From the NCBI GenBank assembly GCA_022496805.1, contig CM040100.1, positions 21,605,009 through 21,669,008 on the forward strand: a stretch of DNA of 64,000 nucleotides, given 5' to 3'. Below, one piece after another: positions 39,818 to 55,455 of this stretch. The notes below the pieces were generated by a model. It worked only from the letters and a program-made list of their open reading frames with translations, was not told where the DNA came from and did not search any database. Each line of letters starts with the position of its first letter. The stretch's first letter is position 1. The translations under genes were made by a program, and so were the position numbers. The stretch comes from Pohlia nutans. Its lineage: Eukaryota > Streptophyta > Bryopsida > Bryales > Mniaceae.

Positions 39818-40349
39818 TTATGTTGGTATTGGTTGATTATTTTCTATACGTCTTTTGTGTAAAAGGATTGATCCAGCATATTGTATGGCAATGGTGTTTA
39901 TTGCTTTGAATGTGTGCTTTATGGAGGTTTCGCAGATGTTAAATTTTGTTTCTAGTTGTTTCATTGAGGGGGCGTGTGTGGTTCCTCTGGCTCCAACTGT
40001 GATGACTATGATTGGATCTACTTTCCAACCTTGTTGTATGATATTATTAATTAGAGGTTGGTATTTTAGAATTTTTTTGCCAATTGTTTCTGGTGAAAAT
40101 CTGTCGTTTGTGTATGTGAATTCTATGAATTGTATGGTTAGGTTATCATCGGGATTTAGTGGAGGTGGACTTTGGTATGGGAGGCCTTTAATGCATAGTA
40201 TATCTGGTTTGAATCTGGCATTACATTGACATCTTTGTTGACCACAAGTACATGGTAATAGCCATGGAGGAACTGTGTTTTTTTGTGGGTTATTATTAAA
40301 TGTGCCCGCATTCATGAGAGTGTAGCATCTTGATTTATTCGAGGATAGT
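39818..40349 (-). pseudogene. Retroelement-like ORF, C-terminal part: PD-(D/E)XK endonuclease domain
   Basis: This is the downstream half of an ORF whose upstream half is 54407-55455. Visible motifs: a Cys-rich segment (LPCTCGQQRCQCNARF), then KPDIL (Asp) and about 25 residues later FIEFTYTND (Glu) with nearby Lys (GKKILKY), the order of a PD-(D/E)XK nuclease, followed by DPIIVITVGARGTTH. Such restriction-like endonuclease domains occur at the C-terminus of some non-LTR retroelement proteins. The open frame extends to a Met at 40459, but its first 37 codons come from the end of the inserted 14-kb transposon. Once that is removed the reading frame joins EIRKLI to LSSNKSRCYTLMNAG without a break. 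No stop or frameshift occurs in this half. Confidence 0.75.
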
Positions 40350-40392
40350 AACACTTGTTTCGTTAAAAGTGCACATAGCCATGTGCACTTTT
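40350..40392 (+). repeat. Left terminal inverted repeat and adjoining hairpin
   Basis: Within and just inside the repeat, AAAAGTGCACAT (40365-40376) and ATGTGCACTTTT (40381-40392) form a perfect 12-bp-arm hairpin with a 4-base loop. At the right end the same AAAAGTGCAC word instead appears twice in direct orientation. Confidence 0.9.
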
Positions 40393-41385
40393 TTTTAGGG
40401 TTAATTGTACCATTGCCTCCATATGAAGTCAAAAAAGAGCCTGTATTGTATATTTTCATATGCTAATTTATTTTTTAAATTATGCTTCAAATATAAGAGA
40501 ATCCAATGCAAACATGCGTACATATTGAAGTAGTTGGTAAATTTAACTTTCACTATCCTTATTGTAAAATTTAGCTACAAATTGATTATTTTATCTTACC
40601 TTTCTGAGTAATAATGTAGATCCATACAATAATTCCATAGTAAAAATCAACATTAATTATAACTGGTGAAGTAGAAGTACATACACAATGAAAAAAAAGC
40701 TTAAATCATTAATAGTTCTAATCTAGAATTAATGTATTAAACGGTGTCAATCTTGATAATGAAAAAGTATGTAACATACAATTTCAATCCTATGAGTTTC
40801 TATTTTGAAATGAATGTGGAAATGTGATTCAATTTAAAAAACAGGACTCTTCATAACTTTTGTATTGCTTATCCAAATATAATGAATATAACCTTCCCGT
40901 GTGTATGAATTCATAACCTATAGGAAATAATCGCTTCTAATTTTTATAAAAAGATTACATTTCATATTTGATATTAAAAAAGATAAACTATAATTGAAAT
41001 GCCAACATTCACCTTCAGTTTGTCTTTTGATTCCATCCGCTCATTCCTTTAAAAGTAATAATACCAGACACATTGTACGTGTTATGCCAAAATCTTATTA
41101 GTGTTTCATACATGCATCTTGCATTAATGCTTTACATTGAATTTTACAAGAAATCACAATATCATAACCAAATTCATTTGTTCCTAATTACTTTGATTTG
41201 CACAATACACATTTGATGACACGAAATTAAATGAAGAGAACATAATAATATATGAAATTTATTTCCTATAAGGGGCACACATACAACATAAGCAAAATCA
41301 TGATAATCTCTCTAACCTTCTATATGTCAATAATACTATATCCATGTCTTAGAACATACTACAATTACTAACAAATTATCCTCTC
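40393..41385. other. Non-coding subterminal region of the 14-kb transposon
   Basis: AT-rich sequence with no open frame or repeat of note between the left terminal repeat and the 3' end of the minus-strand gene. Confidence 0.5.
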
Positions 41386-44300
41386 TCATTCTCCAGACCC
41401 AGAAAGACCCAACCCTAGACTAAAAGGGTCATGAATAGATGGATGCACTAATGCATTCTCAGCAAAATCTGTAGCTATAGTCACACTTGCATTTAATTCG
41501 TTCATCTCCGCTATTGTCAAATAGTTCCCATCCGTTGTCTTTTGTGGTACTGCCCGTTGAAGTTCCCGAATATTTGAAGCAATATATTTGTATGTAGATT
41601 TTCCACCTATAATATCACTCGTAACTTCCTCTCGAGTATACCATTCCATACCATCATTCCAACGATCCAAGATGACATCATAATAATAGCCATCTTCGTT
41701 CAATTGTAATATTTTTTGCTTGGGCGGAACATGAAAGGATTCAGGAGTTGAAAAACCTATGGGCTCATTGTCTTCATCATCTCTTTCTTCACTCAAAAGC
41801 ATCCTAACCTTTTCTTTATCCTTAGATAATGGACTCTGCAAGCGCATTCTCTTTCGGGGACCGCTACGGCCATCATCTGCATGTCCATAACCCTGAAAAT
41901 CTCCAGTAGACTGAGAATGGTCATCGCCATCATCAAATTCGGTCGATTCTCCCATAGGATTTGTCGGAGGATTCTCCCATAGTGGTTCCTCACCATCTTC
42001 ACCAACCAATCCATCAACTGTTATTTCTTTCCACCTTCAAAGCCATATCACCATATTCTCATCATGCTCAAATAGTATGAGTTCCTTTGTTTGGCCACAC
42101 AATCCATGTGTCATATGTGTAAACCCAATGACCACAATCATCCAATTCTGAGGACGGAAGTAAGATGTGATAATTTCATCCACTACCCCTGGGCATCGTG
42201 CATCGTAATATTTCGTACACAAGTCCCAACCAATTGTGGGCTCAATGAATATTGAATCACAAATCTTCACACGCTCTGCAAAATTCTCCGTCACATTAGC
42301 CGTACGTGGATATCGCATTATAATAATGATAGGTCCCACCGGTGTATAAGTTGCCACAATTTTACCTCCTCCCTTTACCACTTGACCCTTTGCGCCCGAT
42401 TGTGGAGCAAACACATATATACCCTTGATGACGGTCCACCCTGGTTCTACAGGAACATCCTGCAAACGGAGCACAACCTCCGCAATCTCCCCAGCTGGCA
42501 ACATAAATATGGCATTCTAACGTTCTGTATCACTCATCCAAGCTTCAATCTTCTGTAATATACCTTTATAATCCACCTCAGACCAAAAACCTCCACTAGG
42601 CCCGTTTCTACAATCAAACATCCATAACGCAGGCCGGGCAAATTTACCTTGTACCGCTTGAGATAGGCATCCTCCCACTTTCACTTTCGTTTCTACTCCA
42701 AGTCCTTTCTGTCCAGCATACTGAAACTCAAAATTCCACAACCCCTCATTCTCTTGGAAAATTTCTGTGCCATCTGCAAACAATCTCAATTTTCCTTCCA
42801 CAATTAATTTGAAATGATTGAAGACCTTTGATGGGATAAATGTTTTGTTCTTCATCATAGTATCAAACCCGGTCATAGCTTTCACTGATACCCAACTTTT
42901 CCGAAATTCATTCTACCAAGAAAATCAAGTGTTCGATTGTCTCCAAATTTCTCAACATTCCTCAATAGCCAATTTTTCTTATCAATAAAGTCGCCTGCAG
43001 CCTCTGCATCCAACCACTTTATAGCATTGTGAACCCCCAAACGTATTTTAGTTTTTTCTACCCATGTTTGCAATGAATTTGTTGAAGAAGAAAGAAAAAA
43101 TATTTTTTGATCTTTGTTCCTCGTGTCTACAGTTGCAGCTTCGCACAAAAGAACAAAGTCCATTGGACTAGTTCCCTTTAGTGCTTTTAACCAAGCAATT
43201 GACATCCGTTTACGTTCATGTGTACTAGACTTCTTTCCGCTCTCATTCAACTCTTTTTTTTTGTCTTTCTCTGAAAAGAAAGTGAATCCTTGGTTATAAG
43301 CATCACACATTGCCTTCACTGCCAACCATTGTGTCTCTGAAACAGTAGCAATAGACAACCAATCTCGGTATGTCAAATTCATTTTCTTCATTGACATGAT
43401 ATTGTTATCTTTGGTGTCTGGTTTCATTCCAGTAACACTAGATAGACATTGTAGAAATTGCCGTCTTCTCTCTATGTCTTCATCTTTGAAAGGGCTTGGA
43501 CATTGAAATTTGGTCCAAACATTTCGAATTTTCTTCAATGTCTTCCCAACTGTGCTATGATACTTTCGTGTAGTGGACTCTTCATTTCGTTTACTAGAAA
43601 TCACGAGATATTTGAAATCTTCGTCATAAACCACCACTTGTGCCGGATGTCTAACAAAGAGTTTGTTATAATTCTCCTCAGAGAGAATCCCACACGTACG
43701 GTCCATTGGGGCCAATTCTTGACAAGCATATAAACTATGTTGTCCGTCTACTGGCTCCCAAGTAATGAGTGGAAGAATGGCGTCATTTTTTTGCGCAAAC
43801 GTATCACCTGACATTTCATCAATGCATTTGAGAAAATCTTTGCAGCTTTTAAAAACATAAGGCTGCACATTGTCTCCATTGGCGTTTCTTGGCGCTACAT
43901 ACTCTATGGGCCGTAAAGTCAACATATGCATCTCCAAAACGTGAAGAGATTTCATTCTCTGGTACACGTTCTCTGCATTTTGAGTATTCAAAACCCGTTG
44001 ATTTGTAAAAAGATCGGAGGGTGGTCTTACCTTTTCCAATTTCCACCGTAAATCGATAGTCCTTTCCAAATATGAATCCCATTTCAACTTCATCGGCAGT
44101 TGGTAGAGGAATCAAATCATTCTTCGACGTTGTAGGCAAAGATTGGCTTGCAGAAACAAGTCGATTGTTTCGTGATCGTACGTGAGTAGACGGTTCCGTA
44201 CGTTCATGAAAATCATACAACGTCAATGCAAGATCCGTTGTTTGTGATGTGTTGACGCGTTGAGTGGTGGAGGATCATGAACCCTTATTTCTCTGTGTTG

Positions 44301-44901
44301 AAGCTGTAATTGTAGAAGCTGGAATATGAAATTGTTCAACATCTCGTTCTTCATATTTAGAAATGAGCACCAAGGAATGCCCGTATTTTACAATTTCAGG
44401 CAAATCTTTTGGTGCATTTCCAACTCCATTCAAGTAGCGTTCATATTGAGTCATGTAAATTTGCAAACTTTCAAGTTGAGCTTGATCAAGCAACGAAACA
44501 TTGATACATAAATTCTCGCGAAGACTTTGGTGAGCAACGTTCAAATTCGCCCACCACTTCAGGAATTTTGGTAAACCCGTGCACTTTATAGGAACCAAGT
44601 CCACAGACCTCATAATATTGCATTGCTTCAGAAGATAACTCACTAAAGGATTCGGTTTTGTGGCTCGCATGATAACTTCACATAGCCCAACTTCAGAGAA
44701 TGATTGTACTTCCACTATCTTTGTCACAGTTCCAACAATGTGAGAAATTTCACACCAAACTCCATTTGGTTTCCATGGAAAATCCGAAATGCATAAAACC
44801 ACATGTTTATCAGTTTTTGATAACCACCACCCATACTCCAAAAAACTATCCATGTTTCCAGGCTCTCCAATACACCAAAGGAAAAAATAATCACATCTCA
44901 C
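41386..44901 (-). pseudogene. Decayed transposon gene with ParB/DGQHR-like motif
   Basis: One long former gene read right to left. A plausible acceptor (TTATTGGCAG) precedes 44901, so an upstream exon may exist. The frame then runs with in-frame stops TGA (44275-44277), TAG (42517-42519) and TGA (42037-42039) and frameshifts near 44030 and 42885. Joined, it would exceed 1,100 residues. Segments in order: an unrecognised N-terminal part (YGWWLSK, FPWKPNGVWCE); a central part with ILPLITWEPVDGQHSLYACQ and about 35 residues later PAQVVVYDED, the strand-DGQHR-helix-strand order of ParB-like folds, with the usual Arg replaced by Ser; a later part with hydrophobic strands and CDSIFIEPTIGWDL then YFRPQNWMIVVIGFTH, which could be a degenerate methyltransferase DPPW-type motif (speculative); and an acidic, basic-cluster tail ending with a WYTREEV segment. 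Family otherwise unknown to me. Confidence 0.7.
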
Positions 44902-45092
44902 CTGCCAATAACAAATACCACATAAAACTTTAGTACACACAAATTTCATCCATATCTATCTATTGATAATGAAATAAAAAAGAGGGGAAACACCATAAAA
45001 TTATCTAAGTACCCAAAAAGAGACTACTAAAACAAAATTGATGAAGGGTAGTAAGAATGTACAGCAACTCTCAAACTTAGAGAACAAATAAA

Positions 45093-46225
45093 TTGATGGA
45101 GGGGGTGGGCACATTCCCACCCCCTCTAACTCCTTGAAAAAAATAGAAATTGATAGAAGGGGTGGCCACATTCCCACCCCTCTAACTCTTTAAAAAAAAT
45201 TCAAATTGATAGAAGGGGTGGGCACATTCCCACCCCCTCTAACTCCTTGAAAAAAAATAGAAATTGATAGAAGCGGTGGGCACATTCCCACCCCCTCTAA
45301 CTCCTTGAAAAAAATTAGAAATTGATGGAGGAGGTGGGCACATTTCCACCCCCTCTAACTCCCTGAAAAAAATTAGAAATTGATGGAGGGGGTGGGCACA
45401 TTCCCACCCCCTTTAACTCCCTGAAAAAAATTAGAAATTGATGGAGGGGGTGGGCACATTCCCACCCCCTCCAACTCCTTGAAAAAAAATTCAAATTGAT
45501 AGAAGGGGTGGACACATTCCCACCCCCTCTAACTCCTTGAAAAAAAATAAAAATTGATAGAAGGGGTGGGCACATGCCCACCCCCTCTAACTCCTTGAAA
45601 AAAAAAATAGAAATTGATAGAAGGGGTGGGCACATTCCCACCCCCTCTAACTCCTTGAAAAAAATAGAAATTGATAGAAGGGGTGGGCACATTCCCACCC
45701 CCTCTAACTCCTTGAAAAAAAATAGAAATTGATAGAAGGGGTGGGCACATTCCCACCCCCTCTAACTCCTTGAAAAAAATAGAAATTGATAGAAGGGGTG
45801 GGCACATTCCCACCCCCTCTAACTCCTTGAAAAAAAATAGAAATTGATAGAAGGAGTGGGCATATTTCCACCCCTCTAACTCCTTGAAAAAAAATTCAAA
45901 TTGATAGAAGGGGTAGGCACATTCCCACCCCCTCTAACTCCTTGAAAAAAATTCAAATTGATAGAAGGGGTGGGCACATTCCCACGCTTCTAACTCCTTG
46001 AAAAAAAATAGATATTGATAGAAGGGGTGGGCACATTCCCACCCCCTTTAACTCCCTGAAAAAAATTAGAAATTAATGGAGGGGGTGGGCACATTCTCAC
46101 CCCCTCTAACTCCTTGAAAAAATAGAACTTAGTAAAGGGATAGACATGTAATCCCCACCTTCTCAAACTTGAAGGACAAAATAATTTGATGGAAGGGGTG
46201 GGTCCATTCCCACCACCTTCCAGGC
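45093..46225 (+). repeat. Tandem array of about 18 units of 58 bp with GC-rich palindrome
   Basis: Each unit is GGGTGGGCACATTCCCACCC (a near-perfect palindrome) plus an A-rich spacer (about CTCTAACTCCTTGAAAAAAA and TAGAAATTGATAGAAG). About eighteen good copies run to roughly 46125, and two degenerate ones follow to 46225. Unit length varies only by the poly-A run. The array sits immediately 5' of the minus-strand gene. Open frames across it are repeat artefacts. Confidence 0.95.
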
Positions 46226-47280
46226 TAAGAGGAAAAATAAACTGATAAGATGGAATACTAGTAGAATACTGGTAGAATTTGATGAGTGGGGGTAGGTTTC
46301 AACCCACCTCATATAATTGGAAACTGCATAGAGGGAAGGCGGGAGGATTTGGATAACTTTAGCATATATGCTTTATTGCATCTGATCTTTATGATCAATT
46401 TCACATGGCAGATATTCAATGTGGTAATTATTGTCATCTTTGACTTGATGAAAAGTTACTAAATAGGTGAAGATGTCAAACCTTGGGTTATTTTATTGTC
46501 TTGGAAATTGAATAATCCATGAAGATAAATATAGCTTGTAGAAGTCTTCAAACTTGGATGATATGATTTGTTGGATAGGTGAAATGGCCTTCTAATATAA
46601 TAAGCTCAAAAACACCAAGTTGTACCATGGGAAAGAGTCGTTGTAAACAAATACACGTGATCGATATGCTGCCTAAGAGGCCTTGCCAATGCATAAGTCT
46701 GGAGTCATGCAATGGAAGAACCTCAACACATTAAGTTCATTAAATTCCTAAGTTAAAATATGTCCTAAACTATGCTCACGAAATGAAGATGTAATTAATT
46801 GACTATTGTTGTGCCGGCAATAGAAGTGTGTTCATTTGTCATTCCTTCCTTCATCTTCAAAGACTTCATGTATGCATTGGCGGTTTGAACTGCAAAACAT
46901 ACAAATATACATGTTTGTCAAACCACAGAGGCCACTGAAACCAAACACAAAGGAGCATCATAATTGAATAATACTATGGAAGCAAAGATCCCGTTTGAAA
47001 GGATAGAATTATTTATACAAAATGTGTTTGATGGATCATTCACCTCTATGAAAGCTGCAAACATCTCACAAGACCTGGCAGTTCTGGACCACAACCTCAA
47101 TGATGCTCAAACAGTGACCTTGGCAAGCCTGATCTTGGGAAATCACAAATTCCACCACCACCCTTGGCAACTCTAACCCTAGCTTCTCATTGAGCTCCTG
47201 CACACGCACAAACATCCATGAAATTGGCAATCTACACTAATTATATCTACACAAAATCATACAAATCAGACAAGGTGTAG
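46226..47280. other. Central spacer of the 14-kb transposon, left part
   Basis: No gene recognised. A frame at 46964-47176 (+) lacks known motifs; it lies just before the aldo-keto reductase-like exon and could be captured host sequence, but I cannot match it. Confidence 0.4.
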
Positions 47281-47451
47281 CTAGCTACGAAGTTCGCCAA
47301 CTGCATTGATGAGCAGGGCAAATTCAGTGTGAGAGGCGATCCTGAGTATGTGCGAGCTGTGTGTGAAGCCAGCTTGAAGAGGTTGGACGTGGACTACATT
47401 GATCTCTACTATCAGCACTGGGTGGACATCAAAGTCCCTATCGAAATCACT
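47281..47451 (+). pseudogene. Captured aldo-keto reductase exon
   Basis: After an AG (GTGTAG) the plus strand reads LATKFANC, then [40 protein letters not shown] and VPIEIT, and then meets a GTAAGA donor. This is the central exon of an NADPH-dependent aldo-keto reductase: the catalytic Lys (LATKF) and His (YYQH) are both present, while the usual QHRVD is QHWVD. No flanking exons (N-terminal barrel or C-terminal NADP-binding part) are visible. It lies inside the 14-kb transposon and is best read as a transduplicated gene fragment. Confidence 0.85.
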
Positions 47452-47896
47452 GTAAGAAAACTTCAACGTCACTTCCACACCCGCCATCTCATTCATGACC
47501 TAATTGCAGTCTTCGCTACGTAACGCGAAAACATGACAAATCACTAAAAGGAAACTGGTCGCTTCTCACTGCTTTTTTGAGCCATTTCATATATCTACAC
47601 AAAATCATACAAAGCATGGACAACGTGTGACTGTTTCACCACAGTGCTCTGGTAGTGCCATCGAAATCTCAGACAAAGAAAATGCACTTTGAATACTGGT
47701 TTAGGGTTTAGGGTGATAGACCTGATCGTTCACAGTGCCCAGCAACAGCTGTCTGGCGGTGATCAGCGGTGCACAGCGACGAGCAGACACAACAAGAAAT
47801 GCGAGCCGAGTGCCAGGGACAGAGCGAGATGTCGGAGTGAGCGGGAGCGAGGTGGCAGAGCAGAACCTGGAGTGACCAGGAGCGGAGCAGTCGCAG
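47452..47896. other. Spacer, GC-richer, with telomere-like motif
   Basis: Includes TTTAGGGTTTAGGG at about 47700-47714 and then a GC-richer stretch leading into the minisatellite. Possibly further captured promoter or leader sequence. No protein recognised. Confidence 0.4.
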
Positions 47897-48115
47897 GAGC
47901 ACTCACAGGAGGTAAGCATGCAAGCAGACAGCGAGAGTGCTGAGCACTCACAGGAGGCAAGCATGCAAGCAGACAGCGAGAGTGCTGAGCACTCATAGGA
48001 GGCAAGCAGACAGCGAGAGTGACATAGGCAAGCAGACAGTGAGAGTGATGAGCACTCACTGGAGGCAAGCAGACAGCGAGAGTGACAGAGGCAAGCAGAC
48101 AACGAGAGTGATGAG
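47897..48115 (+). repeat. Minisatellite, units of about 45 bp shortening to about 30 bp
   Basis: Repeats built from GAGCACTCACAGGAGGCAAG and GCAAGCAGACAGCGAGAGTG words, about five to six copies with internal deletions. Overlapping open frames on both strands reflect the repeat. Confidence 0.85.
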
Positions 48116-48802
48116 CGAGGAGAAGAAACAAGTGTGAGGAGAAGTGGCATGGCGGGGTCTTAAGAGCCAGGCCCAACGGTGCCTACCTCGTGGCTGCATC
48201 CTCCAGCTCATTTTCCTGCTCATCGCCAATAATAACGAGCCAGGCAAAATAGATTAAAATATCACCAAAAAAAGACGAAACCATGTGTGCATGGATGGCT
48301 CCCTTGCTCGCTGGTTGTTCATCCAATGTATATTTTCAAACATTAGGGTTTACAGTAAACCTAATAGAGTGGCGGCTACCAACTAAAAGGAGCCTATCCC
48401 AGCTCGATAGAATTGCACCTGATATTCTTATATAAAGGTAAGCTCTCATTCCGCTCCTTCTTCTCTTCTAATGTGGAGTGACGTTTTTGACAACGATGTA
48501 GCGAGCTAGGTGTTATTACATTAAACTGTAAAAGGTCTCACACAAACACTACAAAAGACATTCAAAGGTTAGCCATACATTCAATCTCCATAATTTTCAT
48601 AATTACAGTTCAATTGCATAGGAGTGGGAATATGATGTACAAAGCAAAGTTGTAAATGTCAACGTGTAGATCACATCTGTATGGTTGGATTTATCAATTT
48701 TATCATTAATATTTTGTAATTACATTTTCAAGGTTTTATTTTGAAATTCAATTAAAAATCCCAAATTAACACAAAGTTTGCACTAAATTTCTTTTAGTTT
48801 GA
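48116..48802. other. Central spacer of the 14-kb transposon, right part
   Basis: Nothing recognisable. AT-rich towards the second array. Confidence 0.5.
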
Positions 48803-49290
48803 AGGGGGGTGGGAACATGCCCACCCCCCTCCAAAATTTTCATTTAATTTCTTTTAGTTTAAAAGGAGGGGGGGGAGGGGGGTGGGAACATGCCCACCCC
48901 CTTCCAAATTTTTCATTTAATTTCTTTTAGTTTAAAAGGGGGGGGGGGGGGGAGGGGGGTGGGAACATGCCCACCCCCCTCCAAAATTTTCATTTAATTT
49001 CTTTTAGTTTGAAGGGGGGTGGGAACATGCCCACCCCCCTCCAAAATTTTCATTTAATTTCTTTTAGTTCGAAGGGGGGTGGGAACATGCCCACCCCCCT
49101 CCAAAATTTGCACCTAATTTCTTTTAGTTGTAAGGAGGGTGGGAACATGCCCACCCCCCTCCAAATTTTTCATTTAATTTCTTTTAGTTTGAAGGGGGGT
49201 GGGAACATGCCCACCCCCTTCCAAATTTTTTTTGCTAATTTCTTTTAGTTGTAAGGGGGGGTGGGAACATGCCCACCCCCCTCCAAAACT
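48803..49290 (-). repeat. Tandem array of eight units of about 60 bp with GC-rich palindrome
   Basis: Units carry GGGTGGGAACATGCCCACCC with spacer words such as CATTTAATTTCTTTTAGTTT. Read on the minus strand the palindrome becomes GGGTGGGCATGTTCCCACCC, matching the first array except at the centre, and the A-rich spacer then follows on the same side. The two arrays are thus in opposite orientation. Two units carry expanded poly-G runs (about 48865 and 48940). It lies just 5' of the plus-strand gene. Confidence 0.95.
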
Positions 49291-49750
49291 TGCACTTAGT
49301 TTCTTTTAGTTTCTAAACACTGGACTAGTTTTGTTGGGGGGTGGGGGGGAGAGGGGGTGGGGATACGTTAAAAGAGTGGAGCGGGGGTGGAGAGGCAAGT
49401 GTCAACCCCTTTAAAATTGGTTTGTTGCAAGAGAGCGTGGGCATTTACTTCTTGGGTGCAATGTTGTTTTAATCTATTATGGGTGGATAGCAGGATTCCG
49501 GATGCAATTCATCAAATATGGGTACTTGAATATGGAACGGTACAAGGCCCGCTTTAGGCAATTGTGGAGGGATGCCAAATCAAAAAGAAAGTGTCATTCC
49601 ATCCTTATCCTTTGGGATTAATAGGAACAAATCCATGGAAGTGGCTCTTCTTAATATTGATGGGATTGTCGTCGCTACAGGGGTGGTAAAAAAAATGTCT
49701 GTGGGATGCATAATTGGAGGTCGACCTTTGAGAGCAACTGGTGAAGTAGT

Positions 49751-51286
49751 CACTACTAGAGAGTGCGTAAAAACCAAGACAAAACCAACACACATCTGTT
49801 GAAACCAACAGAGAATGAGTTTAACGTAGCAAACATTTAGTCATCTGCACAGAACCAACAAGTTTTCTCTTGGAACCAACAAGTTCCTGTTGATTTTCCT
49901 CTTGGAACCAACAAGTTTTCTCTTAAAACAGTAAATAAGAACAGTAATTAAAAAACAGTAAATAAAAACAGTAAATAAAAACACTAATTAAAAATAGTGA
50001 TTAAAAAACAGTAAATAAAAACAGTAATTAAAATAGTAATAAAAAACAGTAAATAAAAAATAGTAATTAAAAACAGTAATTTAAAACATTAATTTAAAAC
50101 ATTAATTAAAATAAAGTAAATGAAAACAGTAATTAAAAAACAGTAAATAAAAACAGTAAATAAAAATAGTAATTAAAAACAGTAAATAAAAACAGTAAAT
50201 AAAAATAGTAATTAAAAAACAGTAAATAAAAACAGTAAATAAAAACACTAACTAAAAATAGTGATTAAAAAAGTATATAAAAATAGTAAATAAAAACAGT
50301 AATTAAAAATAGTAATTAAAATAGTAAATAAAAACAGTAAATAAAAAACAGTAAATAAAAAATAGTAATTAAAAACAGTAATTGAAAACATTAATTAAAC
50401 TAAAGTAAATGAAAACAGTAATTAAAAACAGTAATTAAAAAACAGTAAATAAAAACAGTAATTAAAAAACAGTAAATAAAAACAGTAAATAAAAAAACAG
50501 TAATTAAAACAGTAATTAAAACAGTAATTAAAAAACAGTAATTAAAAAACAGTAAATAAAAATAGTAATTAAAAATAGTAATAAAAAAACAGTAAATAAA
50601 AACAATAAATAGTATGTAGTAGATAGAAGACAGTAAACGATACATAGTAAATATTATACCGTATATAGTAGATATTATATAGTATACAGTAAATAGAAAT
50701 TAGAGAGTAACTTGGGGCCTCTATATACAAAACTTTTAAATACTCCTCCTACATCATGTGTGGAGTGGTGGCTTAGTGGCTAAGGCCTCCATGCGGGAGC
50801 TAAGAGGTTCAAGGATCAAACCCCTTGGCCCCCGACCTTGGCTTAGCCTAGCTTGGTAGGTAGGTGGCTAAGTCCTTGAGCCTAGGCTAGGCTAGGTGGT
50901 CCGCCTTTAGTATTTACTGTTTTTAATTACTATTTACTGTTTTTATTTACTGTTTTTTAATTACTGTTTTTAATTACTATTTACTGTTTTTATTTACTGT
51001 TTTTTAATTACTATTTTTAATTACTATTTACTGTTTTTAATTACTGTTTTTTAATTACTGTTTTTAATTACTATTTACTGTTTTATTTACTGTTTTTTAA
51101 TTACTGTTTTTAATTACTATTTACTGTTTTTATTTACTGTTTTTATTTACTATTTTTATTGAACCAACACCGAACCAAGATAATTCTCTTGATTGTGATC
51201 CGGAATCAACTGTTCCTAACCCGCATAGAACCAACAGAATTTCTGTTGATTTTGTGCGGGTTAGGAACCCCATTTCTCTAGTAGTG
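49751..51286. mobile_element. 1,536-bp CACTA-type foldback element with satellite arms
   Basis: Ends CACTACTAGAGA and TCTCTAGTAGTG, flanked by the 3-bp duplication AGT (49748-49750 and 51287-51289). Insertion splits a coding frame that is restored by precise removal. The left arm (about 49925-50640) is an array of ACAGTAAATAAAA and ACAGTAATTAAAA words. The right arm (about 50905-51165) is the same array inverted, so the element can fold into a giant hairpin. Subterminal AACCAACAGA words recur. No transposase is encoded; CMC/En-Spm superfamily, non-autonomous. Confidence 0.92.
50755..50905 (+). mobile_element. tRNA-derived SINE-like sequence in the CACTA loop
   Basis: TGGCTTAGTGG is a perfect match to a Pol III box A, and about 35 bp on, GGATCAAACCC matches box B with one difference. 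The tail holds TAGCCTAGCTTGG and AGGCTAGGCTAGG repeats. It sits in the single-copy loop between the inverted satellite arms. Confidence 0.6.
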
Positions 51287-54072
51287 AGTTCATGTACAAA
51301 GTGTTGAAGACGAAAATGCACATGTGTATGAATAATACATGTGTAAAATGGGAGAGTGTTTGGACAAAATCATTTGTTGGCCTCGGAATAATATTCAAAA
51401 ATTGACGCATAGTGATTCACATGTGCCTATGGGAAATTCAACACAATCGCCTCTTTCATCCCAAAGATCTCCGGGAAGTATAAGTGAAGTTGGAAGCAAT
51501 AGCACCCCACGAAGTTCACAGTTAATTCATACAACAGATGGTTTGCCTGCATCTCCTCCAAGGCATTCATATATACATAAGGTTCGTAATCGGAAACCAC
51601 CTAGAAGTCCTCGGGTCCTTGGAATGAGAAGAAAGGATAATGTTACCTTGACAACAGTTATGGATGCAAAAAATAAAAAAGTTTGTTCCAAGTGTTGTTT
51701 ACAAACAATCAATGCATTTGATTTGTTATCCTTGAGGTATGAAGCTTGGAGGAGCAAAGATTACAAACATCGGGCTTCTTGGTTGGTGACTACATTACGG
51801 GCATTTATGGTCGCAAAGGAAAATATGCAAGACAAATGCAAATTTGAGACCAAGATTTGTGGACACCTTGTTTGCAACGCTTGTTTTACTTTGGCAATTG
51901 GTTATTCTCTAAGGAGATTGAATACAATCATCTCTGAGATTCGGGAGAAAGATTTGTACAATCCCGTTCATGGTAATACAGGCAATCGGAGGGAATCACC
52001 GCATATATCAATGGCAAGAGCTAAATTTGAATCGTATATAAAATCTTTGGGAGAGACTCAACCGCATCGACAAGTCCGTCGCATGTGCGATGGAGCAATT
52101 GTTCCAGTGATTTGTTTACCAATGAGTGTACGTCGTCGCGAAGTCTGGACGGTTGTGAACTCCTCGCTCTCAAGGATGGGAGAGAATCAAATTGGGTTTT
52201 CTACATTTTCAAAGATGTGGCGAAGCGAATTTACAAATGTGCATGTTCCATCAGAATCTAGATTTTCCAAATGTCAACATTGTTGGGAGTACAAGGAAAC
52301 AAGGAAATCTATGCCCAATGAAGCAATGAAGAATGCCGTAGACGCAGCGTATCGTCTACACTTGGATTTGAGTGTGGAGGAGCGAAAGGATTATAGTCGA
52401 GCACGAGAAGCTGCAATTGAAACTCCCGATGATTGCATGAGTATTATTATAGACGGTATGGACCAAAACACAACTTACGTGCCCAAAATAAAGCAGAGTG
52501 TGAAAGGAATAGAGTCTCGATATGTAAAGACTCATCTATGTGGAGTTCTAGTACACGGGATTGGACTATATTGCCATGTTTGGATTGATGCACATCACAA
52601 ACATGACAGCAACCAGTTGTTACGTCAATTGTGAAGGTGTTGTAAGATGTGAAACGACGAAAAGGAAAATTGGCTCCTATCCTTCGCATTCAAGCACATA
52701 ATTGTGGGAGAGAGAACAAGAATGTATATGTACTCGGACTATGTGCAACATTGGTGGCATTGGGATTTTTCAAAGAAATCCAATTGTCATTTTTGATTGT
52801 GGGTCACACGCACGAAGACATTGATCAACGATTCAGTTTCATCTCCTCGGCATTGAAACGTGAAGATATTGATTCCCTTCCAGAGCTCTTGGAAAAAATT
52901 CGTGAGCGTCCAACACATACCGAACCTTTTGTTCATGTCGAACATTTGGAACACATTCGGGATTGGAAGAAGTTCATAACACCATATTTGAGAACGGATG
53001 CATTTGTCGGCATTAGCCAACCGCATCACTTCCGTTTCTAATGAATAATAATAAGCCTCACGTTCAATATAAACCGTACTCGAGGTCTCCAGCTTGGAAG
53101 CCAGAGCATGGACATGAATGTCTTCAAAGAATTCCTAGTATTAATTCTCAAGTAGATTTAGCAAGCGTTGCAGAACCAGATCGAAGGGAATTGCGAGCGT
53201 TGGAGGATTTCATTTTACTGAAGGAGAGGCATATTGTGCGACACATGAAAATAGAAAAGAGTTTGAAGGCGGTTGCAGAAACTTCAAAACTTATAGCATA
53301 TATGCATGAGTTTCCGTTGAAAGATAGGACCGAGGAGAGGAATTTGCCATTTTGGCCACAAGTACATGATGACATTCATCCGAATGATGTTCAATCTTCC
53401 AAAAGAAATGGGCCTGATTCTGCAATCTGCAATGTTCTTCAATCCCTCCCTCCAGTTTTGGTTTCAGATTATTTTGGACCGCGATCCCAGATGCCAAAGA
53501 ATCATAGAGTGCAGAAAGTGAGCCATACTTGTGAACGAAGGAGGGAACATCGTCAAAACCAAACCAATGCGATGAGGGCACATCCTATAACTAGTGTTGC
53601 AAATCCAATTGCAATGTTGGATTTCCATAAGGAGGTTGAGATTGGGATGTTTGTTGCAATGGAGACCAGCAATGAAGATATGGATAATGGTATTCCCTTT
53701 TTTATAGGGAAAGTATTGAAAACAGTTGCACAAAAAACTTCTGATGGTGAGGCTCAAGTTTTGTGGTACCAACCAAAAATGCCTATAGGATTAAAGGACG
53801 ATATTGGAAAATTCTTCAAACGGTATCAGAATTGCATAGAGCGGATGTGGGAGCCTTCAAGGGAATGTAATGATTTTGTGCCAATCAAGTCAATCTTTAG
53901 TGCTTGGAAGAATACTGTGGGGACAAGGAATGTAACAAGTGTATTAGGAATACGCATAGAAAAGGAGATGAAGATCCCAGATGACCAAAAAAATTCAATG
54001 TATCACCATTTGGAGGCTATAGAGTGGCAACACGTAGGATGTCTCGATATAGTTATGACAAATGTTGCTTGA

Positions 54073-54379
54073 CCTTCCAATAAATGATGTTGCTATCGAA
54101 TTATTGTAATAAAAGCTACAAAATGTTGTAATTTATATTTTACCAATCTTCCAATGAAGTTGTGTGTTATTTGTTTCATTGAATGCATGCCAATTGGAGT
54201 GTATGCATATGAATGTGAAATTGAATGGTTCGTTTCACTGCGGACATGCATATATTAAAAACATTCATTGAATGTTTGTAAAATTTATGTACATTCAATT
54301 TTGGCACTTTATAGGTAAATTATGACTATACTTTCTTCAAAGGTACAAAATTTCAGCATGTGCACTTTTTATATGGCAG
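54073..54379. other. Right subterminal region of the 14-kb transposon
   Basis: Short AT-rich region, no coding. Contains several GAATG and CATTCA words that make imperfect inverted repeats near 54175-54300. Confidence 0.5.
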
Positions 54380-54404
54380 GTGCACTTTTAACGAAACAAG
54401 TGTT

Positions 54405-55455
54405 GTATTAGTTTTCTTATTTCCCAAACTGCTTTGTTGTGTCTTTTAGTTCTTAGTGCGTGTATATGGTGTTGTTTGTAGAGTAAGAGTACATGTAGCC
54501 ATGTGTCTGCATCTTGTGAGTTGCAAATGGGACATGTTTTTGAGGGGAATCTTTGTATACCGAAGATTAGTTGTTTTCTGGCGTTTCCCATGTATTGGCG
54601 GGTTTTTAATTTTAGTATGCTTGTTTTCTGTGAATCTGTTATTTCTGGGTTATTCCAAAAATCATTGGATATTTCGTTATCTATGATGGGGTTCATGGTC
54701 CATTTGTTGATGTTGGGGAAGTCTTTTGCCAATATTTCTAGATTATTTTCTTGGTCATATTTCTTTATGTATTCATCCAGACATCTAACTGGTCCTTTGT
54801 CAAGTCTTTTGTTACGACCGGGCCATGTGTCTTTTTGGAAGTAATAGGGTGTAGTGTGTGCGAATTCATGTAGGTTGGCAGCAAATTGGTAGTCTCTTTT
54901 TGTGGTACCATTTTTTGCTAGTTGGTCTGCTTGTTCGTTTCCTTCAATTTTAGTGTGTGCTTTAACTTTGTATATTGTGGTGGGTTGTGTACGTTTTTGT
55001 AGCATTTCTACCATTTCTTTTAATATGATTTTATCAGCGTGGTTGTTCTGTTGGGTTGGGTGTTTTAGTTGTGTGTTTAGTACGTGTATGCAGTTGAGAC
55101 AATCTGTAAAGATATGTGCAGGTTCATTTATATATTTGGTGGTGATCAGTGAAAGTGTTTCATGTATGACCATTAGTTCTGCTCTGAAACATGTTTGTAA
55201 TCCAGGTAATCTTTTAGATATTTGAGCTTCTGGTTTAGTTGGGTTATAGATCCCGTATCCTGCTTTTTCTTTTTTCCAATGTCCATTGTTATCTTCTTTT
55301 GGTGGTACAAAGGATCCATATGTGTAATAGCTGTATTGAGGTGGGAATTTTAATGTAGTGTTTATTTCGTAGTTTGGTAGTGGTATTATTTCTATGTTTT
55401 GGGGGTTGATATATGGTGGGTATATTAGTTTGTTCCATTTGTGCTTTTCGTGTAT
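54405..55455 (-). pseudogene. Retroelement-like ORF, N-terminal part: RNase H domain and zinc site
   Basis: Open from 55455 down to the 14-kb insertion. The RNase H fold is clear: YTYGSFVPP (the first catalytic Asp of YTDGS is Tyr here), CFRAELMVIHETLSLI (Glu kept), HIFTDCLNCIHVLN (Asp kept) and KVKAHTKIEGNEQADQLAKN (Asp kept). A zinc-binding segment follows, CPICNSQDADTWLHVLL, in which a later expected Cys appears to be Tyr. The frame continues to EIRKLI and, across the transposon, into the endonuclease half at 40349-39818. No reverse transcriptase is found upstream of 55458, where an in-frame stop occurs, so the element is 5'-truncated or represents an RNase H/endonuclease ORF only. Confidence 0.78.

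Follow-up and report, generated by a model that had tools for sequence, protein, structure and literature searches.

Sola transposons encode transposases with a D-D-D catalytic triad, generate 4-bp target site duplications, carry inverted repeats of 11-1124 bp and mostly measure 2-9 kb, with some exceeding 15 kb (PMC10741241; here and below, statements on published systems refer to the accessible part of each paper). They are known from the moss Physcomitrella and are seemingly uncommon in flowering plants (PMC10741241, PMC9033089), with Capsicum also being named as a host (PMC9033089). Sola2 of Dictyostelium fasciculatum, which makes AT-rich 4-bp duplications, sometimes carries the extra gene Fanzor1 (PMC3627910), and the 21.5-kb Sola1-1_Ec32 of Ectocarpus carries on the opposite strand a gene for a protein of 1104 amino acids with ParB-like and amino-methyltransferase domains (PMC12477816). 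For the ParB-methyltransferase proteins of algal transposons, a role in binding and marking the element that encodes them has been suggested (PMC12477816). Here, we describe an element of 14,055 bp in the moss Pohlia nutans, located at positions 40350-54404 of a 64-kb window (the whole stretch of DNA that was analysed, C16:21605009-21669008); the search for further copies covered the entire 698-Mb genome. The element is a broken copy of a large DNA transposon, and its anatomy makes it likely that it is a cut-and-paste transposon of the Sola superfamily (Sola1-like). Its conserved second gene and its palindromic arrays, which miniature relatives retain as well, tentatively suggest a two-protein mechanism.

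The resemblance to Sola in general (Physcomitrella Sola1 and SOLA of Azolla) lies in the 4-bp duplication, the D-D-D triad, the length of the repeats and the non-flowering-plant host (PMC10741241, PMC9033089, PMC6786969). With Sola1-1_Ec32 the element shares, as far as can be compared by description, the giant size and, opposite the transposase, a gene for a protein with a methyltransferase fold, of 1104 amino acids there and up to 1192 codons here (PMC12477816). We regard the element as most likely Sola1-like because duplication, triad, size and opposite-strand methyltransferase-like gene are as published: exact 4-bp duplications occur in 29 of 32 short and in two full-length copies (the window copy shows only GT), the inverted repeats measure 25 bp, the copies measure 12.9, 13.6 and 14.1 kb, and the gene with an amino-methyltransferase fold, as predicted by a low-confidence model, lies on the opposite strand in 48 of 48 pairs. 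Unlike Sola1-1_Ec32, it resides in a land plant and has DCRxG instead of DPPY. It also differs from the accessible description of that element by palindromic arrays between the genes and in miniature copies (PMC12477816), and from the accessible Sola descriptions by its second gene, palindromic arrays and miniature copies (PMC10741241, PMC9033089, PMC6786969). A first-pass annotation, made from the sequence of the window, could name no matching plant superfamily and put the element forward as its best candidate for an undescribed system. Both claims give way, since 4-bp duplication, D-D-D triad, repeats and size are published features of Sola, which is reported from Physcomitrella, and the system is most likely a Sola1-like giant transposon.

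The window copy and its host site comprise the following features:

40348-40349, GT to the left of the element, remnant of a target site duplication together with 54405-54406
40350-40374, forward strand, left terminal inverted repeat, perfect over 25 bp
41386-44955 (approximate limits), reverse strand, second gene, broken into the pieces 44850-44035, 44054-42912 and 42912-42031 in two frames
45075-46218, left palindromic array, units of about 58 bp with the core GGTGGGCACATTCCCACC
48743-49325, right palindromic array, units of about 60 bp with the core GGTGGGAACATGCCCACC
49491-54072, forward strand, transposase gene (PF25273/DUF7869) in the pieces 49491-49751, 51288-52631, 52616-53038 and 53035-54069 in three frames
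49752-51287, later insertion of about 1.5 kb within the transposase gene, with an array of 13-14-bp repeats
54380-54404, reverse strand, right terminal inverted repeat, perfect over 25 bp
54388-55455, reverse strand, frame of the host retroelement with an RNase H domain (PF00075, E 9e-15); the insertion separates it from its other part at 39818-40349
54405-54406, GT to the right of the element

Within the window, AACACTTGTTTCG is found once per strand, starting at 40350 on the forward and ending at 54404 on the reverse strand, and both ends have AACACTTGTTTCGTTAAAAGTGCAC in common, 25 bp with zero mismatches, as the first-pass annotation had noted. That annotation had also drawn the borders by rejoining the interrupted host frame. 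With the joined flanks plus one GT as query, 40 places were scored among 1940 candidates; their identity to the query is 95-98%, over its full 240 bases in 39 cases and over 239 in the remaining one. Eight sequences were fetched, and in all eight of these empty-site paralogues of the split retroelement the junction is continuous and reads GAGGATAGTATTAG, so that the proposed junction is correct for the window copy. The annotation had further suggested a search for other copies with the same ends and for intact copies with both genes open; copies with these ends exist, and open frames of either gene occur elsewhere in the genome. For the 13-mer end, the genome holds 228+238 occurrences versus 13+9 for the reversed control, an excess of about 20-fold, and a pattern search for end pairs spaced 388-418 bp apart found 32 places versus none in the control. 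Two full-length relatives of 13,618 bp (C1:5228059) and 12,853 bp (C2:46126081) are about 95-97% identical to the window copy over ends and genes. The transposase is open over 1014 codons in three other copies and the second gene over up to 1192 codons, while the window copy itself is dead.

The first-pass annotation had also read the GT on both sides as a 2-bp target site duplication. GT indeed stands on either side of the window copy, the flanks being GGATAGT (left) and GTATTAG (right), but a 2-bp target site of the family is rejected because short copies show 4-bp and never 2-bp duplications. Among 33 short copies fetched, one (L017) was dropped because its flanks are those of L016; exactly 4 bp are duplicated in 29 of the 32 copies with distinct flanks and 2 bp in none, compared to a mean of 1.24 and a maximum of 5 in a control with shuffled flanks. 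The 4-bp duplications have many different sequences, and both full-length copies with a target site duplication have 4 bp each. The exceptions among the short copies are one with a single substitution (L086) and two with extra bases beside an end (L016, L077). The site in the window fits either TAGT or GTAT, indistinguishably, with 2 bp lost beside one end. L016 and L017 (C2:14565843-14566836 and C2:14575898-14576891) lie about 10 kb apart with identical flanks, probably owing to a local duplication of host DNA.

The profile match of the window transposase to PF25273 (DUF7869; E 1.4e-41) bears out the DUF7869-like transposase of the earlier annotation. Its model adopts a predicted RNase H fold of the integrase/Mos1 type, on which conservation marks D475, D557 and D599 as the D-D-D triad; in the alignment, the window copy has a histidine where the open C1 copy has D557. 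Between families, the ratio of non-synonymous to synonymous substitution rates (dN/dS) of the transposase is 0.12-0.17, a rough value from two comparisons with dS of 2.0-3.0 near saturation (dS was saturated in three other between-family comparisons of the two genes). DUF7869 proteins of Branchiostoma, Strongylocentrotus, Saccoglossus and Mytilus share the homologous domain at 27-40% identity over the aligned part and bear no transposon name. None of 30 pattern-matching stretches in viral contigs encodes a relative of the transposase, the plasmids searched with the transposase core gave no match, and a PDB sequence search with either protein returned nothing meaningful.

For the second gene, the genome holds 65 matches, and the protein is 35-60% identical across diverged families, with a between-family dN/dS of 0.21-0.34 (two comparisons, likewise rough with dS of 2.0-3.0 near saturation). 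After exclusion of five matches that are second pieces of listed loci, 60 places were compared with 150 listed transposase matches, these being the ones scored among 1478 candidates. A transposase match lies within 30 kb of 48 places, and the orientation is divergent in all 48, with a chance partner rate crudely estimated at 1.3% of places. Since one of these 48 places (C12:24483399) belongs as a second piece to a locus already listed, and a pair on C7 looks locally duplicated, the number of independent pairs is somewhat below 48. The ParB-like character assigned in the first-pass annotation holds at the level of a motif: WEPVDGQH, which we take to resemble ParB/DGQHR proteins, is exact in 15 of the 21 alignment rows covering it. 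Searches of Pfam, PHROGs and NCBIfam gave no ParB match and nothing else meaningful at E up to 1, and the phages searched with this protein gave no match. The C-terminal part models as an amino-methyltransferase, and the 50 listed fold matches are all N4/N6-type methyltransferases; no ParB chain is among them, the model being too poor in the ParB-like region to exclude ParB. In amino-methyltransferases the catalytic motif IV is of the DPPY type. At this position, by our own placement of the motifs according to sequence and strand order, six covering rows from four families have DCRxG, a partial seventh row (P0077) has DCF followed by a gap, and we could not recognise a motif I glycine loop. 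Judged from these residues, the methyltransferase domain is apparently dead.

The palindrome arrays of the first-pass annotation are two tandem arrays, which lie between the two genes. The core GGTGGG(4-8 nt)CCCACC occurs 20 times in the window element, 20 times in the C1 and 16 times in the C2 copy, and the looser core GTGGG(4-8 nt)CCCAC 21, 23 and 17 times, respectively, with none elsewhere in the window. A fourth family (L067) has two arrays with different palindromes, again between its genes. Four of eight repeat units tested, namely those of these two pairs of arrays, are palindromic with an arm that none of 200 shuffles reached. All 33 short copies match the right array of the C1 copy (at least 100 nt, E of at most 1e-10), whereas matches of 60 nt or longer to the gene regions are absent from all of them. 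Exact palindromes are present in 32 of them (three in 24, two in six, one in two), L012 having none.

The ends with their 4-bp duplications, the predicted fold, the conservation and divergent pairing and the arrays in miniature copies are observed, and on this basis we suggest the following mechanism. The DUF7869 transposase would cut at the 25-bp inverted repeats with its RNase H D-D-D site and insert with a 4-bp stagger, in a presumed cut-and-paste reaction. In the second protein, a putatively active ParB-like region would be joined to an amino-methyltransferase fold without DPPY; having presumably lost methylation, the protein would not methylate DNA and may instead bind the palindromic arrays as a DNA-bound cofactor, acting as a clamp, a synapsis or an anti-silencing factor. 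Miniature copies, consisting of the ends and about three palindromic units, could be moved in trans. In its full form, the proposal is a two-protein machine in which a D-D-D transposase works with a ParB-like clamp whose methyltransferase portion is dead and which reads palindromic parS-like arrays needed in cis for mobility; we put this forward tentatively, as possible rather than probable. If true, a cis requirement beyond the inverted repeats would account for even 390-bp miniature copies keeping about three units.

A number of observations weigh against this interpretation. Membership in Sola rests on anatomy and not on an alignment with a named Sola transposase. Three of the 32 short copies and the window copy have no exact 4-bp duplication, and two large end pairs (at C1:9032187 and C1:43004411, with lengths of 13,667 and 12,029 bp), which seem to be composite or chance pairings, have no target site duplication. 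Further down the Foldseek ranking, the transposase model matches mostly Argonaute/PIWI chains, whose fold is likewise of the RNase H type, and the within-family dN/dS of 0.44-0.73 (three comparisons) relies on few changes, so that recent constraint on the transposase may be weak. For the second protein, the model has low confidence (mean predicted local distance difference test score 46.3) and yields no ParB match. Of its 60 places, 12 lack a listed transposase within 30 kb, some of them possibly because scoring covered 150 of the 1478 transposase candidates. As to the arrays, 15 of 200 shuffles reach the arm of the family-3 unit of L066, and the family-2 unit (L064), a 33-mer (L063) and a 23-mer (L067) are not palindromic. 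Finally, the short copies are alike (pairwise identity 0.917 on average, 0.563 at minimum) and may derive from a single deletion event, so that arrays in all 33 are suggestive but no proof of need.

Among the alternatives, a true 2-bp stagger at the window copy would match the empty sites exactly; we consider it very improbable, since neither the short copies nor the two full-length copies with duplications show 2 bp, and TAGT or GTAT minus 2 bp explains the same site, L016 and L077 having similar small changes adjacent to an end. The DUF7869 elements could also form a superfamily of their own that reached 4-bp duplication and D-D-D triad by convergence. This would agree with a link to named Sola transposases by anatomy instead of sequence, with the lack of a transposon name for PF25273 and with the absence of the word DUF7869 from the literature searched, but is quite unlikely as the duplication, the triad, the size range and the opposite-strand gene with a methyltransferase fold all fit published Sola and the Ectocarpus Sola1 (PMC12477816, PMC10741241).

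Concerning the second gene, its absence from the 33 miniature copies and the twelve places lacking a listed partner would suit passive cargo unrelated to movement of the element. However, the gene is kept at 35-60% identity across diverged families in strictly divergent pairs, its frames are open up to 1192 codons and similar genes are published in algal transposons (PMC12477816), which renders cargo rather unlikely. For the Ectocarpus protein, active DNA methylation as a mark on the element has been proposed (PMC12477816); the same role here would be consistent with the amino-methyltransferase fold of the model. With DCRxG or DCF in place of DPPY and no recognisable glycine loop, always according to our placement, we judge such an activity distinctly improbable and prefer the DNA-bound cofactor.

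Other superfamilies were considered as well. The KDZ group, where the duplication is 8 bp in its remaining members too, is ruled out by the 4-bp duplication. Such an 8-bp duplication is described for a Dileera of this group (PMC12730594). Tc1/mariner is ruled out, as the 4-bp duplications of many sequences stand against its 2-bp TA target (PMC10741241). The CMCT group (EnSpm/CACTA, Mirage, Chapaev, Transib, Lanisha and others) resembles the element in its catalytic-triad transposases and duplications of 2-5 bp (PMC12730594); Lanisha and the rest of the group are ruled out on motifs. Residues 558-598 of the open C1 copy contain no CxxC and have two histidines (593, 595) one residue apart.

In the largely open-access literature searched, neither palindromic arrays nor a degenerate methyltransferase were found for any Sola element. 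Within this scope, three features are apparently unpublished: a methyltransferase domain that seems to be dead, palindromic arrays, and the occurrence of such arrays in miniature copies. The algal-type ParB-methyltransferase module recurs here in dozens of copies, with several open frames and miniature derivatives; copies, open frames and miniatures of little more than ends and palindromes allow a direct test of the binding target of the ParB-like protein and of its methylation. Palindromes that prove necessary would represent a parS-like element in a eukaryotic transposon, and a dead methyltransferase would call for a revision of the marking hypothesis in this lineage.

The insertion at 49752-51287 is absent from the C1, C2 and C5 copies and is probably another, younger element; its repeats (49885-51163), which make up most of it, occur in both orientations and are able to fold back on each other, belong to it and not to the transposon proper. 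A second DUF7869 family comprises L064, L065 and L068, with the right end AACACCCATTTCGTTAAAAGTGCAC (reading inward) in L065 and L068 and a two-gene layout as in the window element in L064. In Foldseek, the transposase model (L024:3500-6541) also weakly matches BAH-domain chains (EBS bound to H3K27me3, TNRC18, DNMT1, polybromo; E 0.06-0.13), and one of its two beta domains, at about 46-125 near the N terminus or at about 870-980 near the C terminus, may resemble BAH and serve to read chromatin. The large end pairs L025-L026 and L027-L028 enclose unrelated elements with a Copia-like polyprotein or a long interspersed nuclear element. At element positions 3626-4555 of L027-L028, a retroelement frame contains the motif GDIETNPGP, which presumably resembles a 2A-type peptide.
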